IMG/VR virus record: IMGVR_UViG_3300021197_001535
Coordinates: 1-34,189 of that record
Strand: one strand, 5' to 3'
DNA from: a virus
Length of the DNA: 34,189 bases
The notes under the pieces are model-generated. The model made no database searches. It saw only the letters and a program-made list of their open reading frames with translations, and was not told the DNA's origin. This document shows, in pieces, positions 1,068 to 27,587 of this stretch. A program made the position numbers and the translations under genes. Each line of letters begins with the position of its first letter. Within the stretch, counting starts at the first letter, position 1.

Positions 1068-1202
1068 ATGGCAAAGCAAAACACATTCCAACAGTTCGTT
1101 CAGAAAAAAGTATCAAGACCCGGAATCCATGGGAAAACAAAATCATCTAAGCGTAAGTCTTCTAAGCTTTACAAGAAGGCATATCGCGGTCAAGGCCGCT
1201 AG
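1068..1202 (+). CDS. 44-aa very basic phage protein (R-P-G-I-H / Y-R-G-Q-G-R type)
   Basis: ATG 1068, stop TAG 1200-1202. The protein begins MAKQNTFQQFVQKKVSRPGI and ends YKKAYRGQGR; it is strongly basic (K/R/S repeats in the second half) with no acidic residue. From memory, similar short proteins with RPG-x-H, K-x-x-SK and Y-x-GQGR spacing recur in Bacteroidota phages without known function; I could not check this. Nucleic-acid or virion-interior binding fits the charge but is inference. It overlaps the next gene by 74 nt in another frame, so both sequences constrain each other. Confidence 0.65.
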   Translation: MAKQNTFQQFVQKKVSRPGIHGKTKSSKRKSSKLYKKAYRGQGR

Positions 1203-3834
1203 TCTATCAATACTCCTATTAGCATCTATAACCGCTCTAGCACAGAGTTGGGTTAGCGTAGAGCTACAAGCAGATCAATACTCGACAGAAACGAGTTGGT
1301 CTATTGTACAGGGGGATAGCACATTTGCATCAGGGGGTCCTTATACAGAACCCTTTCAGTATGTACAACAACTGGTAGAACTACCACCCGGGGAATACAA
1401 CTTTGTAGTTGATGATGCTTTCGGGGATGGTATCTGTTGTGGGTTTGGGGAAGGATGGATTGGGATAAGCAATGCGTGCGGTCTCAATGACTACTACTAC
1501 GACTTCAGCACTAGCCAACTTGTAGTATTCTTTGACCTACTCCCATGCCCCCCACCCGTCTATGGGTGTATGGATACAGAAGCTATCAACTACAACCCCA
1601 ACGCTCTCTTCGAGAGCAACAGCTGTCTTTACAATGTCACATTCCAACTAGATCTTAATGGACCACATCCACCAGAAATAGATGTACCTGAGGTAAATGG
1701 GACGTTCAATGGGTGGTGTGGAAGTTGCTCTGCGATGTCAGACGACAACAACGACGGTATATGGGAGATCACTCTACCTATACAACAAGGCAACTTTCTA
1801 TGGAAGTTCTCTGCAGACGAATGGGAGGTTCAGGAATTGCCAGTAGGCGTTTCTGAGTCTCCTTGTTTTTTGTTTGATGAAAACGGGTATGTAAACAGGA
1901 CCCTTAATGTTCAAGGGAATATGACTCTACCCCCGTTCTGTTGGGAGAGCTGCCTTCCTTGTGGGGCAGTACCGGGATGTACAAATCCCAACGCCAGCAA
2001 CTGGAACCCTTGGGCTAACTTTGACAATGGAACATGCAGTGTAAATGAGATAGCAGACTGCCAAGAAGGGGAGACAGAGATAACAGTGACTCTGATCCTC
2101 GACAACTACCCATCAGAGACAAGCTTCTCTTTAGAGAACCAAGCTATAGGAGAAAGCATCATCGACGTATCCGTCGGGCAAGTATCTGAGCAGATAGTGG
2201 GAATACCACTAATGTTTAGCACCTGCGTTGTAGTAGGTGACCCAATAGAGTTTAAGCTAAACGACACCTTTGGTGACGGACTTGGGGCTTCACAGTGGGG
2301 CGGTCAAGATGGGGACGCTTATATAACTGCGTGCGAGGACACATTGTGGCAATTAGAGGTAGCGGACTTTGGGTATACAGTAGCCGCAAACTTTACTGCA
2401 CCGGAGTGTGGTGCCCCAGAACAAGTACTTGGATGCCTGAACGAAAGCTATCTAGAATATAACCCTAACGCAAATACAGACGACCCGTCACTGTGTCAAA
2501 CAGTGATCACGTACGGGTGTATAGAAGATGAGTTTTACAACTACGATTCACAAGCCAATACAGAAGACGCAATAGACTCCTGTTCTTACACGCTCACAAT
2601 TACAGACGGGGTCGGGGACGGATGGTTCGGCAGCTGGTTGGGGGTATACCAGGACGGGGCTCTATCCCCACAATATCAGATGGGGCCTAACGATGGGAAT
2701 GAAGAGGTCTTCGACATAATTCTGTCAGCCCAGCAGGATATCGAGATATTCTTCTTTACCACTCCGCAGTCACAGAATCAAATAGCACAATGTGGGTTCA
2801 TGCTCGAAGGACCAACAGGGGACACACTGATTAATGTACCTCAGTGGAGCATGATCCCATTCCCCAACACATACAGCGTTCGCCCGTACTGCGGAAATAC
2901 CTGTATCCCATTCTCATACGGATGCACAGACACATTAGCCTCCAACTTTGACGTCAACGCCAACAGTGAAAACGGGACTTGTTACTATAACCCAGGCTGC
3001 ACACAAGCAGGCTACCTAGAATACTACACACAGGGATATGAAGCTGACTACGATAACGGTAGTTGTGATATCATCGCGGTATTTGGCTGCATGGATAACA
3101 CAGCTTTTAATTACAACGAAGAAGCCAATGTAGAGACCGAGTGTACCCCAGTAATAACTGGATGTATGAACGAGCTCGCGTTCAACTACGACCCTAACGC
3201 AAACACCCCCGGTGATTGTACTCCGTATATATATGGATGTACAGATGCAACTGCATTCAACTATAGCCCACAAGCCAACGCCGACGACGGGGATTGCATT
3301 GATGTAGTGCTTGGATGCATGGATGAGTCTGCAATCAATTACAACCCACTAGCCAACACAAACAGTGGGTGTATAGAGTCAGTATCAGGGTGTATGGACC
3401 CAGACGCATTTAACTTCAACGACCTAGCCAACGTCCCAGACAATGATCTATGCAACTATGATGCAGGGTGCATTACAGGTCCAGGAGAACCATACTGGTT
3501 GAATGACCAATGCTATGCATGGGTAATAACCGTTGACCCCTACTGCTGTGAGACAGGGTGGGACAATGTGTGTGTGGAGATGTACGAGTACTGCGGTAAC
3601 GGGATAACCAACGTACCCATGTACCTCAACGACATCAGCGTATTCCCCAACCCAACACAAGACGCCATACGCATACAAGCCCCACAAGGCACAATAACAA
3701 CTGTCTACAACTCTGTCGGGCAGAAGATCACAACAACCTCAGAAAAAAGAATTACCCTCCCAGCCGCTGGAGTATACACGGTAGTAATCAACTACAAGGG
3801 TAGAGTAATAAAAGAAACAATCGTAAAACAATGA
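1129..3834 (+). CDS. Secreted repeat protein with C-terminal T9SS sorting domain (901 aa)
   Basis: Residues 1-39 look like a long signal peptide: basic stretch (TRRHIAVK), hydrophobic core, cleavage after ALA before QSW. The body holds about eleven Cys-bounded units of the type GC-M/T-D-x-x-A-x-N-Y-N-P-x-A-N...C, with interspersed beta-sandwich-like domains that carry D-x-x-GDG motifs (DAFGDGICC, DTFGDGLG, DGVGDGW), typical of Ca-binding secreted Bacteroidota proteins. Near the end is a Cys cluster (DPYCCETGWDNVC). The last ~75 residues match the type A T9SS tail: FPNPTQD, YNSVGQ, LPAAGVYTVV, final KETIVKQ. It should cross the outer membrane and be displayed or released. The next gene overlaps its stop (ATGA). 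The start is the only ATG in frame upstream of the signal segment. Confidence 0.85.
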   Translation: MGKQNHLSVSLLSFTRRHIAVKAASLSILLLASITALAQSWVSVELQADQYSTETSWSIVQGDSTFASGGPYTEPFQYVQQLVELPPGEYNFVVDDAFGDGICCGFGEGWIGISNACGLNDYYYDFSTSQLVVFFDLLPCPPPVYGCMDTEAINYNPNALFESNSCLYNVTFQLDLNGPHPPEIDVPEVNGTFNGWCGSCSAMSDDNNDGIWEITLPIQQGNFLWKFSADEWEVQELPVGVSESPCFLFDENGYVNRTLNVQGNMTLPPFCWESCLPCGAVPGCTNPNASNWNPWANFDNGTCSVNEIADCQEGETEITVTLILDNYPSETSFSLENQAIGESIIDVSVGQVSEQIVGIPLMFSTCVVVGDPIEFKLNDTFGDGLGASQWGGQDGDAYITACEDTLWQLEVADFGYTVAANFTAPECGAPEQVLGCLNESYLEYNPNANTDDPSLCQTVITYGCIEDEFYNYDSQANTEDAIDSCSYTLTITDGVGDGWFGSWLGVYQDGALSPQYQMGPNDGNEEVFDIILSAQQDIEIFFFTTPQSQNQIAQCGFMLEGPTGDTLINVPQWSMIPFPNTYSVRPYCGNTCIPFSYGCTDTLASNFDVNANSENGTCYYNPGCTQAGYLEYYTQGYEADYDNGSCDIIAVFGCMDNTAFNYNEEANVETECTPVITGCMNELAFNYDPNANTPGDCTPYIYGCTDATAFNYSPQANADDGDCIDVVLGCMDESAINYNPLANTNSGCIESVSGCMDPDAFNFNDLANVPDNDLCNYDAGCITGPGEPYWLNDQCYAWVITVDPYCCETGWDNVCVEMYEYCGNGITNVPMYLNDISVFPNPTQDAIRIQAPQGTITTVYNSVGQKITTTSEKRITLPAAGVYTVVINYKGRVIKETIVKQ
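1558..3456 (+). repeat. About eleven GC-(D)-xxA-x-NYN-type repeats in the secreted protein
   Basis: Units begin near 1558, 1975, 2431, 2515, 2920, 2997, 3087, 3160, 3235, 3313 and 3388. Each starts with G-C, has a D/N plus two residues and A, then N-Y/F-N/D, then an A-N or A-L and a second Cys. The last six are in direct tandem with roughly 24-26 residue spacing; the early ones are separated by larger domains. The DNA of the copies has diverged, so this is an old protein repeat. Confidence 0.8.
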
Positions 3835-5165: not shown

Positions 5166-5528
5166 ATGAAAACTGTAATGCTATATGCGCTATTGTTTGC
5201 GTTGTTACTGGTACCTGCATCCACGGTAAGTAATAGCGACCCATCAATAGACAGTGGCATCTATGTAGTTGAGTTCAATGCGAGCTTTAACGCACAGAAT
5301 AGCGTGCCCTGGATAGAAACCATAACTGAGTGTAAGCCTCTACGTGTAGACATAGGAGAAGCACCTGATATGCAAAAGGAACACAAGATTGTGGTAGTAC
5401 CAACGATCATTGTGTTTAGTGAGGGCGAGGAAGTAGAACGCTTCCAAGCCAACATCATGATGACAATGGAGGCTACTTCAGACGAAGTTCAAGAAGTAGT
5501 TGATGAAATTATTTTGAGCGACTTCTAA
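5166..5528 (+). CDS. Exported thioredoxin-fold protein without active-site cysteines (120 aa)
   Basis: Hydrophobic N-terminus (residues 3-20) is a signal peptide or anchor. Then YVVEFNASFNAQNSVPW (33-49) aligns with the thioredoxin VdFwAxWCGPC segment, but W-C-G-P-C is F-N-A-Q-N, so both catalytic cysteines are gone. The cis-proline motif survives (VVVPT, P79), followed by IIVFSEGEEVERFQ, the typical strand-turn-strand. The fold is kept and the redox chemistry is lost; only C56 remains. A binding or chaperone role in the periplasm is likely. The promoter of the downstream noncoding region begins inside its last codons. Confidence 0.75.
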   Translation: MKTVMLYALLFALLLVPASTVSNSDPSIDSGIYVVEFNASFNAQNSVPWIETITECKPLRVDIGEAPDMQKEHKIVVVPTIIVFSEGEEVERFQANIMMTMEATSDEVQEVVDEIILSDF

Positions 5529-5543
5529 GTTGCCTTATATTCG
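5513..5543 (+). promoter_or_regulatory. Bacteroidota-type promoter in front of the noncoding region
   Basis: TTTG (5513-5516), exactly 19 bp, then TATATTCG (5536-5543), one base off the -7 consensus TAnnTTTG. The -33 part lies in the 3' end of the thioredoxin-like gene. Initiation about 5-7 nt after the -7 element would put the 5' end at about 5548-5550, which is where the first long-range helix of the proposed RNA starts. The same geometry occurs at 6207-6237. Confidence 0.65.
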
Positions 5544-5547
5544 CAAA

Positions 5548-5788
5548 GAGACCGCTCCCCAAAGCGATCGGCCCTCGGTAACCAAAAAGGGGCCTAGACA
5601 TCGGGTTATAGTAGCTACCACCATAGGTAGTGAACGTTGTCCCCGGTAGTCTCAAAAAGTGCATCGGTATAAAACTCGGGTGGGAACAAGGCTATAGGCT
5701 GACAGAAATGCCCCCACGCAGGCTAGACACGGCGAGTGGAAATCCGAAATCGAAACATTAAAAACCAAGGGGGAATAATTGTATCCAG
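5548..5788 (+). ncRNA. Candidate structured noncoding RNA, about 240 nt
   Basis: No reading frame of coding character fills this 260-nt gap between two genes. Helices seen by eye: GAGAC 5548-5552 with GTCTC 5649-5653, closing a 5' domain; inside it CGCT 5553-5556 with AGCG 5563-5566 (loop CCCCAA), GGCCC 5570-5574 with GGGCC 5590-5594, and CTACC 5615-5619 with GGTAG 5626-5630. The 3' domain is three nested helices: TCGG 5664-5667 with CCGA 5744-5747, ACTCG 5674-5678 with CGAGT 5733-5737, GTGGG 5680-5684 with CCCAC 5713-5717. A-rich single strands link them. A promoter fits its 5' end. The 3' end is uncertain and may run into the amidase mRNA, so a long structured leader is the alternative. It does not match tRNA, tmRNA, RNase P or group I core motifs that I know. 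Confidence 0.6.
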
Positions 5789-6205
5789 ATGAGACCACTC
5801 AAAAGAATCATTATACACTGCTCTGCAACGCCAGAGGGTAGAGACATAGACGCAGCAACAATAAAGGATTGGCACGTTAACGGTAACGGCTGGTCAGATA
5901 TTGGCTATCACTACGTCATAAAAATAGATGGGTGCCTAGAAGTAGGCAGGCAGATAGATAAGGTTGGGGCTCACTGCAAGGGGCACAACAAAGACTCTAT
6001 CGGCATATGCTATGTAGGAGGGGCTGACAAAGAGATGCAGGCAAAGGATACTATGAACGAAGCCCAGGAATCCACTATGCGGGAGCTCATATACTCCCTA
6101 CGTATGGTATCAGACTCGCACCTCACGCTGCATGGGCACAATGAGTATGCAACAAAGCTCTGCCCGAGCTTCAGAGTGTCCGAAAAGTTTAAGGACATAC
6201 TATAA
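5789..6205 (+). CDS. N-acetylmuramoyl-L-alanine amidase, T7-lysozyme type (endolysin)
   Basis: A 138-residue Amidase_2/PGRP-fold enzyme that cuts the bond between muramic acid and the L-Ala of the stem peptide. Zinc ligands by alignment with T7 lysozyme: H10 (IIIHCSAT), H117 (HGHNEY) and C125 (KLCPSF), with the catalytic tyrosine at Y40 (GYHY) and lysine at K123. The H-to-C spacing of 8 and the K two before the C match T7. There is no signal peptide or cell-wall binding domain, so it needs a holin to reach the murein; a holin candidate lies at 30008-30445. Confidence 0.92.
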   Translation: MRPLKRIIIHCSATPEGRDIDAATIKDWHVNGNGWSDIGYHYVIKIDGCLEVGRQIDKVGAHCKGHNKDSIGICYVGGADKEMQAKDTMNEAQESTMRELIYSLRMVSDSHLTLHGHNEYATKLCPSFRVSEKFKDIL

Positions 6206-6206
6206 G

Positions 6207-6237
6207 TTTGTATATAAGCTGAAGTTTTATATCTTTG
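6207..6237 (+). promoter_or_regulatory. Near-ideal Bacteroidota promoter before the groES-like gene
   Basis: TTTG (6207-6210), 19 bp, TATCTTTG (6230-6237): full agreement with the Bacteroidota sigma consensus TTTG-N19-TAnnTTTG. Predicted start about 6243, leaving a leader of roughly 10 nt before the ATG at 6254. It is the best host-type promoter in the window and is the likely driver of the GroES-to-terminase genes. Confidence 0.8.
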
Positions 6238-6253
6238 TTATAAATCAAACATT

Positions 6254-6532
6254 ATGACAAAGATTAAGTTTCAACCGGCAAGAGATTGGGTAGTACTCCC
6301 AATGGTGCGAAAAGATCAGACTAAAAGCGGTATCCACCTTATGGAGGGGACTGCAAAGTCTATGCGGAGCAACGTCCTCGAGGTGATAGCCGCAGGGCCC
6401 AAATGCGAAGCAGTTGCAGTAGGAGACACTGTAATGGTTCACCCAAATTCAGAAGGACTAGTAATCAATCTGGATGAGGGTGAATTCGTTATGATAAGTG
6501 AATTCCAAATCTGTGGAGTTATCCCCAAATGA
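6254..6532 (+). CDS. groES: GroES-like cochaperonin (Cpn10 family)
   Basis: The 92 residues match Cpn10 length and order: N-terminal strand ending RDWVVLPMV, a mobile-loop region (RKDQTKSGIHLMEGTA), then EVIAAGPKC, VGDTVMVHPNSEG and the final strand EFQICGVI. As in other phage Cpn10 proteins (T4 gp31 is the known precedent) it would replace the host GroES on GroEL to fold capsid or other large virion proteins. No GroEL gene is seen in the window, so it must work with the host ring. Confidence 0.8.
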   Translation: MTKIKFQPARDWVVLPMVRKDQTKSGIHLMEGTAKSMRSNVLEVIAAGPKCEAVAVGDTVMVHPNSEGLVINLDEGEFVMISEFQICGVIPK

Positions 6533-19780: not shown

Positions 19781-19803
19781 GGGGGGCACATTCCGTGTCC
19801 CCC
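19781..19803 (+). terminator. Hairpin terminator-like after the 391-aa gene
   Basis: Six G followed by CAC (19781-19789) pair with GTGTCCCCC (19795-19803), including one G-U pair, around loop ATTCC. The stem is nine pairs and is followed by TTTAATAT, a short U-rich run. It looks like an intrinsic terminator, perhaps incomplete so that part of the transcription reads into the adhesin genes. Confidence 0.6.
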
Positions 19804-20282: not shown

Positions 20283-23200
20283 ATGAGGAGAGGTTCAGCA
20301 AACGGTAAGTTCTGCGCTATAGTGCAGGTAAGTATTGATGATGCTAAGAACGCTGAGTTTGAGGACTCCAGTCTTCTTAACAACTTCAACGACGCTAGCC
20401 ATCTATGTGTAAAGGTAAGATCTTACCTACGTAAGCTACCTTTGCATATGGGGGCACAGTGTGCCCTGGCAGTTGATGCAAAGCTAACTGCTTACAGCAA
20501 GTCATCTTCAGAGTATAAGCCCAACAACACTACTGTCTTCTACGAAGACGGGTCCAACGACGTTAACTTCCAAGGAAATGCAATTGCTACAACCATATAT
20601 ACTGCAGCAGGAGGACCAGAAACAATCATACGGTATCTGAATGATAGTGCTGTGGGAGGTGATAGAGAGATCTATCTAATGATACCAAGAACCACAGTAG
20701 ATCTAGAAAGTACTGAAGAATTCACGGATAGCCCCAGCGCTGCTCGAATAACTAGAGTAAATATCCAAGTTGATTTTGTGGACGGGTCTTCGGTACCAGT
20801 CATAATGGAGCTTAAGAGAGACGCTGTAATAACAGTGGACCTCTCTATAAACAAGCTTCAGATTGGTAACCAAGCTGAGGACTTTATGCAGTTTACCCCA
20901 CAGCTGAAAGGTGCTTACTTCAGTGGCAGTGTTAGTCCCTCAGTTATATACTCTTTTACTAAGTACAATACTAGTAATAGAGCCGCATCACAGAATCCTA
21001 GGATAGCTAATGCTTTTGGTCCAAACAGCACGGCAATGCCATTTGCATTGCCCGTATTCAGCCTAAACCATAATGATACAAATAGTCTACTGGGAAATAC
21101 CAACTCCCCTCTAAATGGTGCAGCTAGTAGTGGTAGAAACTACGCCGGACTTAGATGGGTAACAGGTACTTCAATACCATACTCAAATGGAACAGATAAC
21201 ATTTATACAAACGATGTAGTTGCACATTCTAATATTAACCTTGGTCAGTTTTTCCAAATGGACCGGTTTGATAACCCAACGAGCAACGGCAGCAGTAGCG
21301 TGTCAAGCGTTGCGGGCACCGGTAATATGTCATGGGGACGTAAGTACGGTACGGCAAACTGGTACGCAGCTAACGGTACCAACGGCTCCACGTCTCCATG
21401 GATTACAAACACCTTCAGCAGTAACTTAAGTAATGGTTTTGGTCCAAGTTTGGGATGGCATAAGAGATCGTCGGTGTCAACTGACATGCACGATGTAGGA
21501 GCAAATGGGGGAGGGGGCATACATGATCCAGGAACAATATATGGACCATCTACTCAGGGCGAGCTAGCCAATTGCTTTACACAGCATTTATCAGGTATAT
21601 CTGGTAATATGCCGGGTACTAATAACATGAGCGATACCGGTTCGAGTAACCGTCAAGTACGACGACAGTTTACGCATAGTAGTGTAACCCCAGTAGATGA
21701 TAGCCTAGCTGATGTGAAGGACTCATGTATCCCAATCAAGGACATGAAGACAAACTACTTTGCACAAGGATTCTCTGTAGGAGGTGGTGCTCCTATTGTA
21801 GTGTGTGCAAGGGTAGTAGGAACTGGATGGAATGGCAGTGGCGGCATCAACAACAGACCTGAGGTAGTAGATACTGGTGTGTTTTGGCAGCATGAAAAAA
21901 GCCAGCCCGACGGAGAGGGCTACACTATATGGCAGAACACCGACAGTACCAGCTCCGACGATGAGCTGGTGTCCGCCTTTTGTAATCTATCATACGAACC
22001 AACTACTAATGTTACATCACATCCTCTTCCAGGACTTTTGACCCCATTGGGAAATGAGCCAGCTGACGTTGTAACTGCCAATGAGGTATATTCATATTTT
22101 ACATCCAACGGCACCACTAGAACAACAGCGGCTATACTTGCTAATAATCAATTCGTAAACATGCCCTTCAACGGGTTTGAGTACGTCTGCAATAGAATGT
22201 TTGGGAATAGTGGTGCATTGCACTCACTAGACACTTTCCCCTGTAACTCAGAAGGGTACGATCCTGGTGCTCAAAATTGGGGTGAAGCCCTCATATTTAA
22301 ACGTGCCCGTACTATGTATGCACAGTACACGGTAAAAGATGCAGGCGGTACCAACTTCAACCTTGGACAGGGCGGTGGCGCCGTGCCCCAGGCTAGATTG
22401 CTTGGGTCATCATTCGGCTACGTTCCCCTAAGTATAGGGGCGAAGGGAGCAAACTGGAATGCAGACGCATGGTACATGGAAGGGTATCAAGACGTGCACT
22501 TTATAGTATCCCTTGGGGCAACAAGTAAAAACTACTCTCCTCCAGAAACAGTCGGCGCGGGCATAGATAGTACAAGATTGTCCCCATGGTTCTCGACAGA
22601 TGTTTACATAGCAGAAAATAACACCACCTACGGCGGAGCATCGCCCGCCGGTAGTGCTGCATTTAAAGTATTCGAAACTGATTTTAATAACGGTACTAGC
22701 AGCAATGTCTTTAGACTGGTCACTCTATACTCTAAGCAGAAGGTTCCAGGGAGTGCGTGGATAGGAGAGGATACAACAGTCTCTTACAGATATCCTTATG
22801 CATCTCAGCACGGGGCAAATCTTTGCAAGTGCACGGACCCTACCCTGGCACAGGGAATAGATAACCATCTTGCTACTGCATTCGACGATACAATACCAAC
22901 AGGTTTTCAAGGAGACTTTAACCACTCAAGTTTTGCTCGGGGAACTCAGTATACTGCATATGAAATGTATAAGGTTGCTCTTCCTATGGATGCATTGTAT
23001 ACAGGTGTATCGGGGAAAGGAGCGTTAGGTACAGGAGGAGCGGAGCCGTGTCTCTACGCAACAGGAAGTAGCGACTGCCTAGAGTTTATTGGAACTGACA
23101 TCCACATATCTGATATGGATGGAGGCGTCAATACAGGAGCCGATGGAACTGACGGATTCGGAGGACTGACAGTAAGAGCTAGTATACGGTACAGAAACAC

Positions 23201-26200
23201 TTGTTCTGGAACAGGGGCGGATAGCTTTAAATACAGTTCTGTTATCGCTCCTACCGAGATAGACCAAATACTATCTATATGGAAGATTACGTATGTACCC
23301 GGTAATGCAGGAAATGAGTCGATAGTAAACCCACAGTTTTACTCTCAAGCTACAGTTAACCAAGTACTAACTGCAGATGATGTAATATCACTAGAGATAA
23401 ACTCTCTAGGAAATAGTGAGTACGAACTTCTAGTGCATTTTCAAAATACAGAGAATTTCATAGACGCAACTTCTGAGGTTCAGGTGTTCCCTGATCTGCC
23501 CTTTGTACGTACCATGCCTACCTACAACCAGACCTATAAATTCAACGGTACTACAGACCAAGTTAGTGGTGTACAGCTAGGAGATCCCACTTCAATTGAA
23601 GATGATGCGTTTAGGTCTAGGTTCTACAACAGTGAGGTATTTAGTACTGACAGTAGTAACGCTATCACTGGCGGTGCTATACGGAATAAGTTCGTGCGAT
23701 CTGCGCATACAGCGCTAGATGGGGCTGCGGAAACCGGAGGAAGCTATATACCATACAGAAGCAGTAAGCTTATAATAGAGCCGATGTCTGAAGTTTATGC
23801 AGCGGCGGGCAAAAGAGTATTTGATTTTGTGACTTACGCAAAGTTCAGAGCTCTATCGGGGTGTACAGATCCTGACTACCTAAACTACAACCCTGATGCC
23901 TTGGATGACGATGGCAGCTGCGAAGGCTTCGCCATCGAAGGATGCACTGATGAAAACGCAGATAACTACAATGCAGAAGCCACGATAGACGATGGTTCTT
24001 GCATAACATGCTCTCAGGATTTAGGACCATTTAGTGGGTTTGACAATGGTAGTAACAATAAATTTAACGCATCAGGTGTATCTGCTGCCGTAAACAACGG
24101 CTCAGCAGCTAACGCATACAAGATACTAGCAGGCTACTCAACTGACCAAACAACGTTCGTGGGTAAGTTTGGGGAGACGTTGGGTACTCAGGCACTAGGA
24201 CTCAATGGTATAAGTGGAGGTACTCCCTCAGACTTAGATACTCTAGGAAACCTAAGTACTTTAAATCAAAGTAACTACCCATGGTTTGCTGCTTTGAGGA
24301 AGACGGGCACTATAGTAGGAAAAACTAACCTGCCCCTAACTAACCAACAGTACAACCAAGAAGGGACAGCAATTGATGCCGACTATGAGCTAGATATACA
24401 GGTAGTGTTCCCTTCCCAGGTAACTGCCGACTCTGTCGACGACGAAGGATTCAATACTTTTCAAGAGGCGATAGAAACACCGATCAATCATAGACTCCGA
24501 ATCTATGCGGCAACTGATGAGATCATAGATTTCATAACCGTGAATAACGCCAACGATGGCACCGGCGCCCCAACCACAGTAGAGGGACAACAGATATTCT
24601 TTATTGGTGAAGACTCTGACGGTAACCCAGGATTCAACTCCGCCACTGAGACCTCGTCACTGCAGGCTGCTGGATTCAATCCTACAATAGTAATTGATTC
24701 TGCCGCTCAAGCATTTACGATGGAGGGCAACAATCTAAGTGTAGCTAGATTCCATGTGCAGGGTACACTTGCACAGACTTCAACCCTCCTTTCTAATAGT
24801 ACTTTGTACGTTGTTGAGCATGTGCTATTGGACAAAAGCTGCTTGAGTTTCACAAGCTACCCCTCATTCTATAGCTTTACTATGATAGGGCTCTGTGGAT
24901 GTACCCTTGATGATAATATTAACTACCCCGCAATACATCCATGGCAAATTGACGAAAGCAACACCTATCCTGTAGCTTACGACAATACCCCATGTACATC
25001 TTCATCATTCCCATTACAATTAGGACCTGGAGATAGCGGACAGCTCTGCTTTACCGCAGATAGTGAAATAAACAGCTGTGACTCCCTATATGAATCCTGC
25101 TTCCTGAGTGTAGAAAGTGAGTGTCTATTTGATAGTGTAGAGAGTCTAGATGACCCGGACCTAATACAGATAAATGGTGGATTCTTCGCACCACAGGAAA
25201 CTACTGCAACCATACTTATAGAGGGCATATACAACCCCACTACAAACGAGTATGAGTACATCAACCAAAATACTGGGCTTCCTACACAGTACTTAAACTA
25301 TACTATAAATGTATACTTAGACGGTGAGTTGGTATCCGACCTTACGCAGGCAGGTCCGGCTGGCGCCGCAGACAGCGGCAACGGGTGGATGCATACATTT
25401 ACATTTGTAAATGCAACGTCTTACGAGTTTCACGTTGTGTACACCAACCCCGCAAATGAGGGGATATATGCAGGCATAGACTTGGGGACGGAATGTGTAG
25501 ATGTACTAGGACCGCAAAATATAGATCGCTTCGAGTGTGAGCTTTTACCTGGGTGTACTGATGAGGAAGCAAATAACTTTGATGCCACTGCAACCCTTGA
25601 TAACGGTGGGTGTGAGTATACAAGTTGTGAAGAATTGTTTGATAGCCTTGCTGGAGGATTCGATGAGATAAACATAGTACAAACAGCTGCTACTAGTAGC
25701 TGTGAGGAAGAGGAGACTATAGTTCTCGGACAGTCGGTCATAAATACATACGTACAGTTTAACACAGACGGTGAAGTAGCAGTACAAGTTGTAACAGATA
25801 CTTCAGATGACGTATTCTCTACGCAATGTAACATAGCTATATGTCCTGCAAATGCTGTAGGCTTTGGTACTGGTATTTCTAGCACTTCCGAGCTTGTCTC
25901 AACAATACTTACACAGGCGGAGAACTTTGAAACAAATGGAGGACAGATATCCTTGGGAACTTCAGGGCAAAATGCTGAAATATCTCCACTGCAGACTATA
26001 GATGTGCCGTTTGCAGCAGGTACAGCTACACAGTTCATAAATAGAACTACTGCTACAGAAACCGTTGCGACCGCTGATCAGGCTGGATTTACGTTCTCAG
26101 GTTTGGCCGCAGGAGAGTATTTCGTATTCGTGTACCCACCTCAATCAAATTTCACCGGCAGCGTTGACTTTACTACAGAGGAGTGCATTAATGAGATACT

Positions 26201-27587
26201 GTTTTATCTAGACTACGTAACCAGAATTACAGTAGGTTCTACAGTGCCTGACGATCCTTGCGAAGAAGATTGTGGAAACCCAGCTGGTTGTGATGATGAG
26301 GTATATGGATGTACAGATCCAGACAACACCGAATACAACGAAGATGCCACCATCGATGACGGCTCTTGTATACCTGGTACAAACTGTGATGCTAACCCAA
26401 ACGATGCAGCTTGCCTAGATTGCAGCACTGAGGCTTCAGAGTTGATTATAGGAAGTAGACGTAAAAGTGTTACAGATACTGAAGATCCCTGTAATCCATC
26501 AAACAGTGGGGATGGGTGCACTGATCCTAATGCATGTAACTACGACCCCTACATAGACGCAAGTAATTCTAACAACCAGTTGTGCGACTACTGTTCATGT
26601 AATGAGTTCTCAGAAGACTGTTGTGAAGGTGAAGATTGTGGGTGTGACCCACAGACAGATGAAAACTGTCCACCAGATATAGACCCCGAATGCCCAGATC
26701 CTACCAACCCTTCATGTAATGGAGGAGGTATTGACCCCTGCTATGATCCAGCAGATTGTCCTCCACCAGTTGATCCATGTGTTATACTTGGTAACTGTGT
26801 AGACGGGCCTATAGTAGATCCTCCGATAGTAGAGGAGCCTGTAATTGAGATAATTAATCCAGTATCAGTACCATGTGAGCCAGACTTCCTAGGACTAAGT
26901 CCCGCAGCAACGTTTGACTTCTCTACGGTGCAGTCTGCGATTATGAGGTGTCAAGGCACAGAGGGAGGTAAGATGGTTGTTAAGCTCAAGCACGGCATTG
27001 AGTACGATGAAGAAGACCTTATAAAACTTGATCTCATAACTTACCTGTTCATAGGGGGCGGAGACAAGGTTGCACTACCATGCCTGTTTAACTGCAACTA
27101 TGAAACCCGTACGAAGAAGAACACGCTGGAAGGTAAAGAAGCATGGGCAAGGCAAGGTGGTAATAAATGGGCATCAACTAATTCGTACACGAAGGGCAAT
27201 ATTGTAGTATATTACTACAACACCTATGGTACAACAAAGAAGTCATACTTCCGGGCTACTAGGGGTATTGAGGCTGGGGGTATTCACCCCAAGTACAAGG
27301 ACTCTGGGTGGAAACTGATCGTGGACTTCAAACCTAAAACTGTAGACCCTCTTGGAATCTCCGACGGTACTGAGAAGTATCTGCAGGTAATGTATGAGTT
27401 CTTTGTACGGTACTGCTCTTCATGCGAAGTAGGAGGAGCTGCAGCTTTACTTGATCCTAACACGGAGGGTAGGGACAACAGTACAGGTACGAGCTACGGG
27501 ATAAAACGAAACTCTAACGGCGGGGGCTCCTACAACTCAGGCTCGTCATCAATAATTGGCCCCGACGGGGAAGAAATAATATTCTAA
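20283..27587 (+). CDS. Giant adhesin-like virion protein (2434 aa) with Bacteroidota-type Cys repeats
   Basis: The largest gene in the window. No signal peptide, so it is most likely a virion protein. A small N-terminal domain (residues 1-70, VQVSIDDAKNAEFEDS) is followed by about 1100 residues of Asn/Gly/Ser/Thr-rich beta sequence. At about residue 1192 the first of five units GC-T-D...N-Y-N...DDGSC appears (others near 1219, 1756, 2008, 2077), separated by beta-sandwich-like domains. Residues 2090-2200 are a Cys/Pro/Asp-rich stalk. The last ~230 residues form a new domain (TYLFIGGGDKVALPC, then YFRATRGIEAGG) and a Gly/Ser end. Probable receptor-binding or host-surface adhesin. The next gene starts 1 nt after the stop. 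Confidence 0.8.
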   Translation: MRRGSANGKFCAIVQVSIDDAKNAEFEDSSLLNNFNDASHLCVKVRSYLRKLPLHMGAQCALAVDAKLTAYSKSSSEYKPNNTTVFYEDGSNDVNFQGNAIATTIYTAAGGPETIIRYLNDSAVGGDREIYLMIPRTTVDLESTEEFTDSPSAARITRVNIQVDFVDGSSVPVIMELKRDAVITVDLSINKLQIGNQAEDFMQFTPQLKGAYFSGSVSPSVIYSFTKYNTSNRAASQNPRIANAFGPNSTAMPFALPVFSLNHNDTNSLLGNTNSPLNGAASSGRNYAGLRWVTGTSIPYSNGTDNIYTNDVVAHSNINLGQFFQMDRFDNPTSNGSSSVSSVAGTGNMSWGRKYGTANWYAANGTNGSTSPWITNTFSSNLSNGFGPSLGWHKRSSVSTDMHDVGANGGGGIHDPGTIYGPSTQGELANCFTQHLSGISGNMPGTNNMSDTGSSNRQVRRQFTHSSVTPVDDSLADVKDSCIPIKDMKTNYFAQGFSVGGGAPIVVCARVVGTGWNGSGGINNRPEVVDTGVFWQHEKSQPDGEGYTIWQNTDSTSSDDELVSAFCNLSYEPTTNVTSHPLPGLLTPLGNEPADVVTANEVYSYFTSNGTTRTTAAILANNQFVNMPFNGFEYVCNRMFGNSGALHSLDTFPCNSEGYDPGAQNWGEALIFKRARTMYAQYTVKDAGGTNFNLGQGGGAVPQARLLGSSFGYVPLSIGAKGANWNADAWYMEGYQDVHFIVSLGATSKNYSPPETVGAGIDSTRLSPWFSTDVYIAENNTTYGGASPAGSAAFKVFETDFNNGTSSNVFRLVTLYSKQKVPGSAWIGEDTTVSYRYPYASQHGANLCKCTDPTLAQGIDNHLATAFDDTIPTGFQGDFNHSSFARGTQYTAYEMYKVALPMDALYTGVSGKGALGTGGAEPCLYATGSSDCLEFIGTDIHISDMDGGVNTGADGTDGFGGLTVRASIRYRNTCSGTGADSFKYSSVIAPTEIDQILSIWKITYVPGNAGNESIVNPQFYSQATVNQVLTADDVISLEINSLGNSEYELLVHFQNTENFIDATSEVQVFPDLPFVRTMPTYNQTYKFNGTTDQVSGVQLGDPTSIEDDAFRSRFYNSEVFSTDSSNAITGGAIRNKFVRSAHTALDGAAETGGSYIPYRSSKLIIEPMSEVYAAAGKRVFDFVTYAKFRALSGCTDPDYLNYNPDALDDDGSCEGFAIEGCTDENADNYNAEATIDDGSCITCSQDLGPFSGFDNGSNNKFNASGVSAAVNNGSAANAYKILAGYSTDQTTFVGKFGETLGTQALGLNGISGGTPSDLDTLGNLSTLNQSNYPWFAALRKTGTIVGKTNLPLTNQQYNQEGTAIDADYELDIQVVFPSQVTADSVDDEGFNTFQEAIETPINHRLRIYAATDEIIDFITVNNANDGTGAPTTVEGQQIFFIGEDSDGNPGFNSATETSSLQAAGFNPTIVIDSAAQAFTMEGNNLSVARFHVQGTLAQTSTLLSNSTLYVVEHVLLDKSCLSFTSYPSFYSFTMIGLCGCTLDDNINYPAIHPWQIDESNTYPVAYDNTPCTSSSFPLQLGPGDSGQLCFTADSEINSCDSLYESCFLSVESECLFDSVESLDDPDLIQINGGFFAPQETTATILIEGIYNPTTNEYEYINQNTGLPTQYLNYTINVYLDGELVSDLTQAGPAGAADSGNGWMHTFTFVNATSYEFHVVYTNPANEGIYAGIDLGTECVDVLGPQNIDRFECELLPGCTDEEANNFDATATLDNGGCEYTSCEELFDSLAGGFDEINIVQTAATSSCEEEETIVLGQSVINTYVQFNTDGEVAVQVVTDTSDDVFSTQCNIAICPANAVGFGTGISSTSELVSTILTQAENFETNGGQISLGTSGQNAEISPLQTIDVPFAAGTATQFINRTTATETVATADQAGFTFSGLAAGEYFVFVYPPQSNFTGSVDFTTEECINEILFYLDYVTRITVGSTVPDDPCEEDCGNPAGCDDEVYGCTDPDNTEYNEDATIDDGSCIPGTNCDANPNDAACLDCSTEASELIIGSRRKSVTDTEDPCNPSNSGDGCTDPNACNYDPYIDASNSNNQLCDYCSCNEFSEDCCEGEDCGCDPQTDENCPPDIDPECPDPTNPSCNGGGIDPCYDPADCPPPVDPCVILGNCVDGPIVDPPIVEEPVIEIINPVSVPCEPDFLGLSPAATFDFSTVQSAIMRCQGTEGGKMVVKLKHGIEYDEEDLIKLDLITYLFIGGGDKVALPCLFNCNYETRTKKNTLEGKEAWARQGGNKWASTNSYTKGNIVVYYYNTYGTTKKSYFRATRGIEAGGIHPKYKDSGWKLIVDFKPKTVDPLGISDGTEKYLQVMYEFFVRYCSSCEVGGAAALLDPNTEGRDNSTGTSYGIKRNSNGGGSYNSGSSSIIGPDGEEIIF
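23859..26580 (+). repeat. Five GC-TD-xxA-x-N-YN-type repeats in the giant adhesin
   Basis: Units begin near 23859, 23940, 25552, 26308 and 26515. Each has G-C-T-D, then N-Y/F-N/D, then usually D-D/N-G-S/G-C. They match the units in the T9SS-type secreted protein at 1129-3834, but here the second half is the more canonical DDGSC. A degenerate unit (GCTLDDNINY) is at 24897. Confidence 0.75.

Follow-up and report, generated by a model that had tools for sequence, protein, structure and literature searches.

A conserved folded RNA, probably a free-standing noncoding RNA gene, ahead of the late module of crAss-like phages

The question raised by this locus is what is encoded in an uncoded stretch of 260 nt (5529-5788) between a Trx-like ORF that ends at 5528 and an amidase gene that starts at 5789. 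The window analyzed here is the whole 34,189-nt stretch of IMG/VR record IMGVR_UViG_3300021197_001535. A preliminary description made from this sequence alone had placed a promoter and a candidate structured RNA in the gap, and offered a regulatory RNA, a packaging-type RNA or an amidase leader as its function. The gap is as described and contains no gene. The feature is larger than a single sequence could reveal: by sequence comparison it recurs in distantly related crAss-like phages, and positions 5548-5786 are probably a free-standing noncoding RNA gene of such a phage. This leads to a second question: which role a highly constrained RNA, present in one copy, plays where the late genes begin.

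Folding of the window sequence gave no extra stability over shuffled sequences (z = -0.52), and the result was similar on the other strand. Since the single-sequence fold is uninformative, the case for an RNA rests on comparison. Relatives were sought in IMG/VR by conserved motifs and then confirmed with covariance models. An amidase search of IMG/VR returned 28 loci, 12 of which carry a near-identical upstream element. Motif scans returned 48 stretches (core motif), 60 stretches (second motif) and 104 stretches (gapped domain 1 motif), the last including far more divergent members. Covariance model R1 was built from 35 close members and R2 from 24 diverse members. R1 matched the divergent members with E values of 1e-5 to 1e-67, except for L110 (E 0.065), and found no match in contigs bearing the search motif by chance. 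R2 matched all 68 chosen loci and none of 35 control loci. By blastn, the window RNA and divergent members gave just one 32-nt chance-level match in the phage collection, and the window RNA gave no match in plasmids.

In the close set (n = 35), which was aligned without structure, 96.6% of the cells are paired and pairing falls to 31-46% in slid controls; 15 pairs show double changes (71 cells compared to 17.7 in shuffles). The broad set (n = 24), aligned to the model, has 97.2% of its cells paired (31-47% in slid controls), a percentage that leans towards the model to which this alignment, unlike the close one, was fitted. Double changes occur here in 40 of the 45 pairs and in all nine helices (254 cells versus 61.6 in shuffles). 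The check proposed in the preliminary description, a covariance model of homologous gaps, has found compensatory changes in abundance. In an unconstrained scan of the 68 members for covarying canonical column pairs, the top 29 are all pairs of the model. It was concluded that a real folded RNA of about 240 nt, with nine conserved helices in two domains and covariation in all nine, is strongly supported by the alignments.

Domain 1 consists of P1 around P2, P3 and P4-P5, and domain 2 of P6 around P7, P8 and P9 (Table 1). The helices drawn earlier from the single sequence (GAGAC 5548 / GTCTC 5649, 5664/5744, 5674/5733 and 5680/5713) correspond to P1, P6, P7 and P8, all of them in the covariation-supported model. 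P3 is followed by an invariant UAGAC. The outer pairs of P6 are imperfect in the window sequence itself. P8 and P9 are invariant in the close set, and in the broad set four of five pairs (P8) and three of three (P9) covary. Domain 2 also has long conserved unpaired stretches. Outside the nested model, pair 5638/5753 (GUY with RAC) is U-A in 37, C-G in 29 and U-G in one of the 68 members; the GUU/AAC tertiary contact is probably real, with covariation that may rest on few evolutionary events. Near the 3' end the pattern AGGG(G/A)-N2-9-TRYRT is found in 59 of the 68 members. Several other candidates were rejected. RNAalifold proposed AGAC paired with GUUU, but UAGAC is invariant and the other strand covaries with the 5' strand of P1. 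Pairing of the 3' GGGG with UCCCC is unsupported, as L163 has AAGGGG yet CUCC. The palindrome CUAUAG, considered as a dimer kissing loop, is not conserved (CUACAG in L081 and L088), and the T-box resemblance of GGGUGGNA is missing from divergent members.

Table 1. Features of the RNA locus and adjoining genes in the window
Feature	Position	Strand	Evidence or remark
Bacteroidetes-type promoter	5513..5543	+	TTTG 5513-5516, spacer of exactly 19 nt, TATATTCG 5536-5543; predicted start ~5548
Structured noncoding RNA, ~240 nt	5548..5786	+	Covariance models R1 and R2, covariation
P1, closing helix of domain 1	5548..5653 (5548-5552 with 5649-5653)	+	Compensatory changes in 5/5 pairs, broad set
P2 hairpin	5553..5566 (5553-5555 with 5564-5566)	+	3/3 pairs covary
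P3 hairpin	5570..5594 (5570-5574 with 5590-5594)	+	5/5 pairs covary, 100% paired
P4	5600..5647 (AUCGGG 5600-5605 with CCCGGU 5642-5647)	+	100% paired, double changes in 2 pairs
P5 hairpin	5614..5631 (5614-5619 with 5626-5631)	+	6/6 pairs covary
Probable 3-bp tertiary contact	5636..5756	+	GUU 5636-5638 with AAC near 5754-5756
P6, closing helix of domain 2	5661..5750 (core 5664-5667 with 5744-5747)	+	7/7 pairs covary across family
P7	5674..5737 (ACUCG 5674-5678 with CGAGU 5733-5737)	+	5/5 pairs covary
P8 and P9	5680..5717 (P8 5680-5684 with 5713-5717; P9 5690-5692 with 5710-5712)	+	Flank conserved loop UAUAGGCUGANAGAAAU
Conserved 3' motif AAGGGGG-N6-UGUAUCC	5767..5786	+	3' tail; AAGGGG and U(A/G)UAUC across members
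N-acetylmuramoyl-L-alanine amidase (endolysin)	5789..6205	+	PF01510 E 6e-12, phrog_822; first gene after the RNA in the window
Second promoter, TTTG ... TATCTTTG	6207..6237	+	After amidase, ahead of GroES-like gene
GroES-like co-chaperonin	6254..6532	+	PF00166; begins the module leading to terminase, portal and capsid; recurrent downstream gene

The promoter TTTG-N19-TATATTCG of the preliminary description is present at its place, and TTTG and TAnnTTTG are the promoter consensus cited for Bacteroides (PMC7366714). Of 61 distinct homologs, 49 have a strict box, TAnnTT(T/C)G, just 5' of the base at which P1 begins; the chance background is 1.4% per 22-nt window. The distance from box to P1 is 4-7 nt in 48 of the 49 box-bearing homologs. 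From this fixed spacing of the -7 box, the transcript is predicted to start at about 5548, where the closing helix begins; the predicted start had been placed on the 5' arm of this helix before. No plus-strand frame stays open through the element in any of the 68 homologs, and the element lengths are spread evenly over the three residues modulo 3. A conserved coding frame, named beforehand as a result that would speak against an RNA, is thus absent, and 5548-5786 does not read as a protein-coding gene.

The window phage is crAss-like, as indicated by its matches to Crass_capsid (E 6e-76) and to the terminase and portal families of crAss phages. Of the 34 contigs from the RNA searches, 16 have a capsid gene that exceeds the cut-off; each of these carries the RNA once, 8-28 kb upstream of the capsid gene and on the same strand. 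All 32 contigs with a match carry one copy of the RNA. The terminase gene lies about 2.3 kb downstream of the RNA in the window. Genes for GroES, a winged-helix-like protein, a zinc-ribbon protein, an HU-like protein and terminase recur downstream. The first gene after the RNA varies (amidase in 34 of 68 members, another lysis-type gene in three, elsewhere GroES or unknowns), and the next ORF is on the strand of the RNA in 65 of 67 cases. This gene order shows the RNA ahead of the late module (lysis, chaperonin, packaging, capsid). Phage-encoded chaperonins recur in the module: GroEL-like genes follow shortly after the RNA in L126, L127, L131 and L093 (L126 also has a GroES-like gene). In two contigs tRNA genes lie near the RNA, a 17-gene cluster in L130 (4877-7462) and two genes in L113 (10804-11071). 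A strong intrinsic terminator (GGGGGGCAC...GTGTCCCCC TTTAATAT) is found on the plus strand of the window at 19781-19803, between co-directional late genes.

Strong intrinsic terminators lie between the RNA and the first gene in eight members (L090, L092, L093, L114, L123, L127, L131 and L137), and in L090, L093 and L127 a new promoter follows the terminator. In L042, L047, L049, L073, L088, L098 and L122 a second promoter follows the RNA directly, its -7 box lying near +281 to +300, so the downstream genes need not depend on the promoter of the RNA. Counting strict promoters downstream of the RNA, 32 of 64 members have one. The reading of the RNA as a mere leader of a single long late operon was abandoned once these promoters and terminators were found. 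The window lineage has no such terminator, and its amidase gene starts 3 nt past the last conserved base; the RNA would therefore also be the 5' UTR of amidase in that lineage. Because of the terminators and second promoters behind it, a free-standing, trans-acting RNA is favored over a cis leader or attenuator, and we judge action in trans about evenly balanced between true and false. Such an RNA would be made as its own transcript of 240-390 nt, ending at the terminator in some lineages and continuing into the downstream mRNA in others. The folded RNA would then work in trans by binding a host or phage partner, protein or RNA, in the late phase. Covariation, fixed promoter spacing, single copy, terminators, second promoters and the variable first gene all speak for a free-standing RNA, as do the members located away from a phage late module, namely L159/L139 and L163 in bacterial MAG contigs. 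The terminator-less window lineage speaks against it, and so does the same-strand next ORF, as a cis leader would give; the members in bacterial genomes are also few, and L159 is without part of domain 2.

The RNA could instead act in cis as the leader of a late operon and so permit late gene expression, either by folding as it emerges from host RNA polymerase and altering the enzyme (put/EAR-like processive antitermination) or by attenuation at the terminator behind it. In agreement with this, a promoter directly precedes the RNA and late genes follow it on the same strand, whichever gene comes first; the strong terminators that separate RNA and genes in some lineages and the one strong plus-strand terminator within the late genes of the window (19781-19803) also agree. 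However, about half of the members have a second promoter that separates the RNA from the late genes, in some right behind the RNA, which would make read-through unneeded, the fold matches no Rfam antiterminator RNA, and the members on bacterial contigs are without a late module. We consider a cis leader possible, though on the unlikely side. A leader that senses a metabolite or protein for amidase alone (a riboswitch-like lysis timer) is very improbable. In half of the members counted above, amidase follows the RNA closely as first gene, but the RNA is retained in many homologs with other first genes or without amidase, and in several a terminator or second promoter lies between. The constant gene association of an amidase riboswitch is not found and this reading is largely refuted by context; of the functions offered earlier, the amidase leader was too narrow and a regulatory or noncoding RNA fits best.

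The packaging-type RNA, also offered earlier, would be part of the terminase-portal motor in the manner of phi29 pRNA. The RNA is phage-encoded, folded and in one copy, and it precedes the terminase and capsid genes at the distances given above. It is syntenic with terminase, yet phages with homologous terminases are without it: the models have no match in 17 crAss-like or related genomes and a fecal fragment that carry such terminases. The crAss terminase here has 650 aa, covering most of the length of its family, and some members are in bacterial contigs. According to PMC11476376, pRNA is peculiar to phi29-like phages, whose motor is reduced; this restriction also counts against a packaging role, which we rate as quite improbable. 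The long unpaired stretches of domain 2 and the abundance of group I introns in crAss phages (PMC7886860) would suit a ribozyme, a remnant of an intron or a degenerate mobile element. Against it, no ribozyme or intron family of Rfam matches at gathering score, or at permissive thresholds in the stretches searched, and the element is intergenic with its own promoter and was never found interrupting a gene. This origin is highly unlikely.

Rfam 15 at gathering score gave no match in the window and tRNAs only in 18 divergent loci; permissive thresholds gave chance-level matches only in the stretches searched. ARAGORN made no tRNA or tmRNA call. The earlier failure to match the RNA to tRNA, tmRNA, RNase P, group I introns or known ribozymes is borne out by these searches. 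HK022 put and EAR, RNAs of processive antitermination, lie just after the promoter at the operon head, a position that the present RNA would have in common with them; it is larger, its fold is different, and a second promoter behind it is common. 6S RNA forms a single long hairpin interrupted by a central bulge, and is likewise free-standing and in the size class of about 200 nt, whereas the present RNA is multi-branched, two-domain and without an Rfam match. 6S RNA is present in Bacteroides (PMC7366714). Like phi29 pRNA, the present RNA is a small folded phage RNA of defined conserved structure, but it has no Rfam match, is missing from phages with homologous terminases and has a layout of nine helices in two domains. 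GOLLD and ROOL are also phage-encoded, with an elaborate conserved fold and orphan function, and GOLLD is also known from a marine sample (PMC12286853). They are much longer (659 nt in a ROOL example, over 800 nt in many GOLLD) and often near tRNA islands. The present RNA, by contrast, has about 240 nt, precedes the late module of crAss-like phages and gives no match to either model. These two orphan phage RNAs exemplify its nearest kind. Searches of open-licence literature turned up no report of crAss-like phages with a conserved noncoding RNA. What is new would be the RNA family, in its sequence and fold, which lies outside Rfam, and not a mechanism. The family spans deep branches of Crassvirales, an order that ranks with the most abundant and best catalogued phages; the RNA provides a marker of the late module and a covariance model with which further searches can be made.

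The models gave no match in 17 named genomes of crAss-like or related phages (including crAss001, DAC15, phi14:2, ProJPt-Bp1 and FpV21; p-crAssphage is outside the sample) and one fecal fragment, an absence first judged with a strict pre-screen and upheld without pre-screen for six 26-kb late regions. In a capsid tree, carriers of the RNA are scattered over the order, with some on either side of the midpoint root, and explaining them takes 4-6 state changes; the tree is uncertain, with several long branches. Ancestral presence with losses and transfer both fit this distribution. In a tentative picture, to which we give less than even weight, the Crassvirales ancestor would already have had the RNA, serving as an RNA-based device when the phage turns to late gene expression or assembly; environmental lineages would have retained it, and the gut families examined to date would have lost it or put a protein in its place. 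Among bacteria, a strict motif had no match in 84,980 species genomes, and a looser motif had three matches in the same genomes, two of them real by the models. Among 395 class relatives two have matches. L159 (L139) is in a Salinivirgaceae MAG contig between restriction-type and vsr-like endonuclease genes, with domain 2 reduced and part of it missing, and in L163, also in a bacterial MAG contig, the RNA adjoins a helix-turn-helix gene. L138 comes from a MAG that bears the label Rhodospirillales and may have arisen by an error of binning or assembly. The scarcity in bacterial genomes fits a virus-borne RNA. One 59-kb contig (L121 / L129) has a model match with domain 1 well kept and no recognisable crAss capsid gene; because of this contig, the family may extend beyond the order, possibly to another phage group.

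Two long proteins of the window phage were also noted. A 901-aa protein (1129-3834) has at its C terminus a T9SS type A sorting domain (TIGR04183 above cut-off, PF18962 below), which is unusual for a phage and suggests export by host type IX secretion or a captured host surface protein. A 2434-aa protein (20283-27587), with no Pfam or NCBIfam match, has repeated C-T-D-P-x-A-x-N-Y-N-P-type motifs resembling those of the 901-aa protein.
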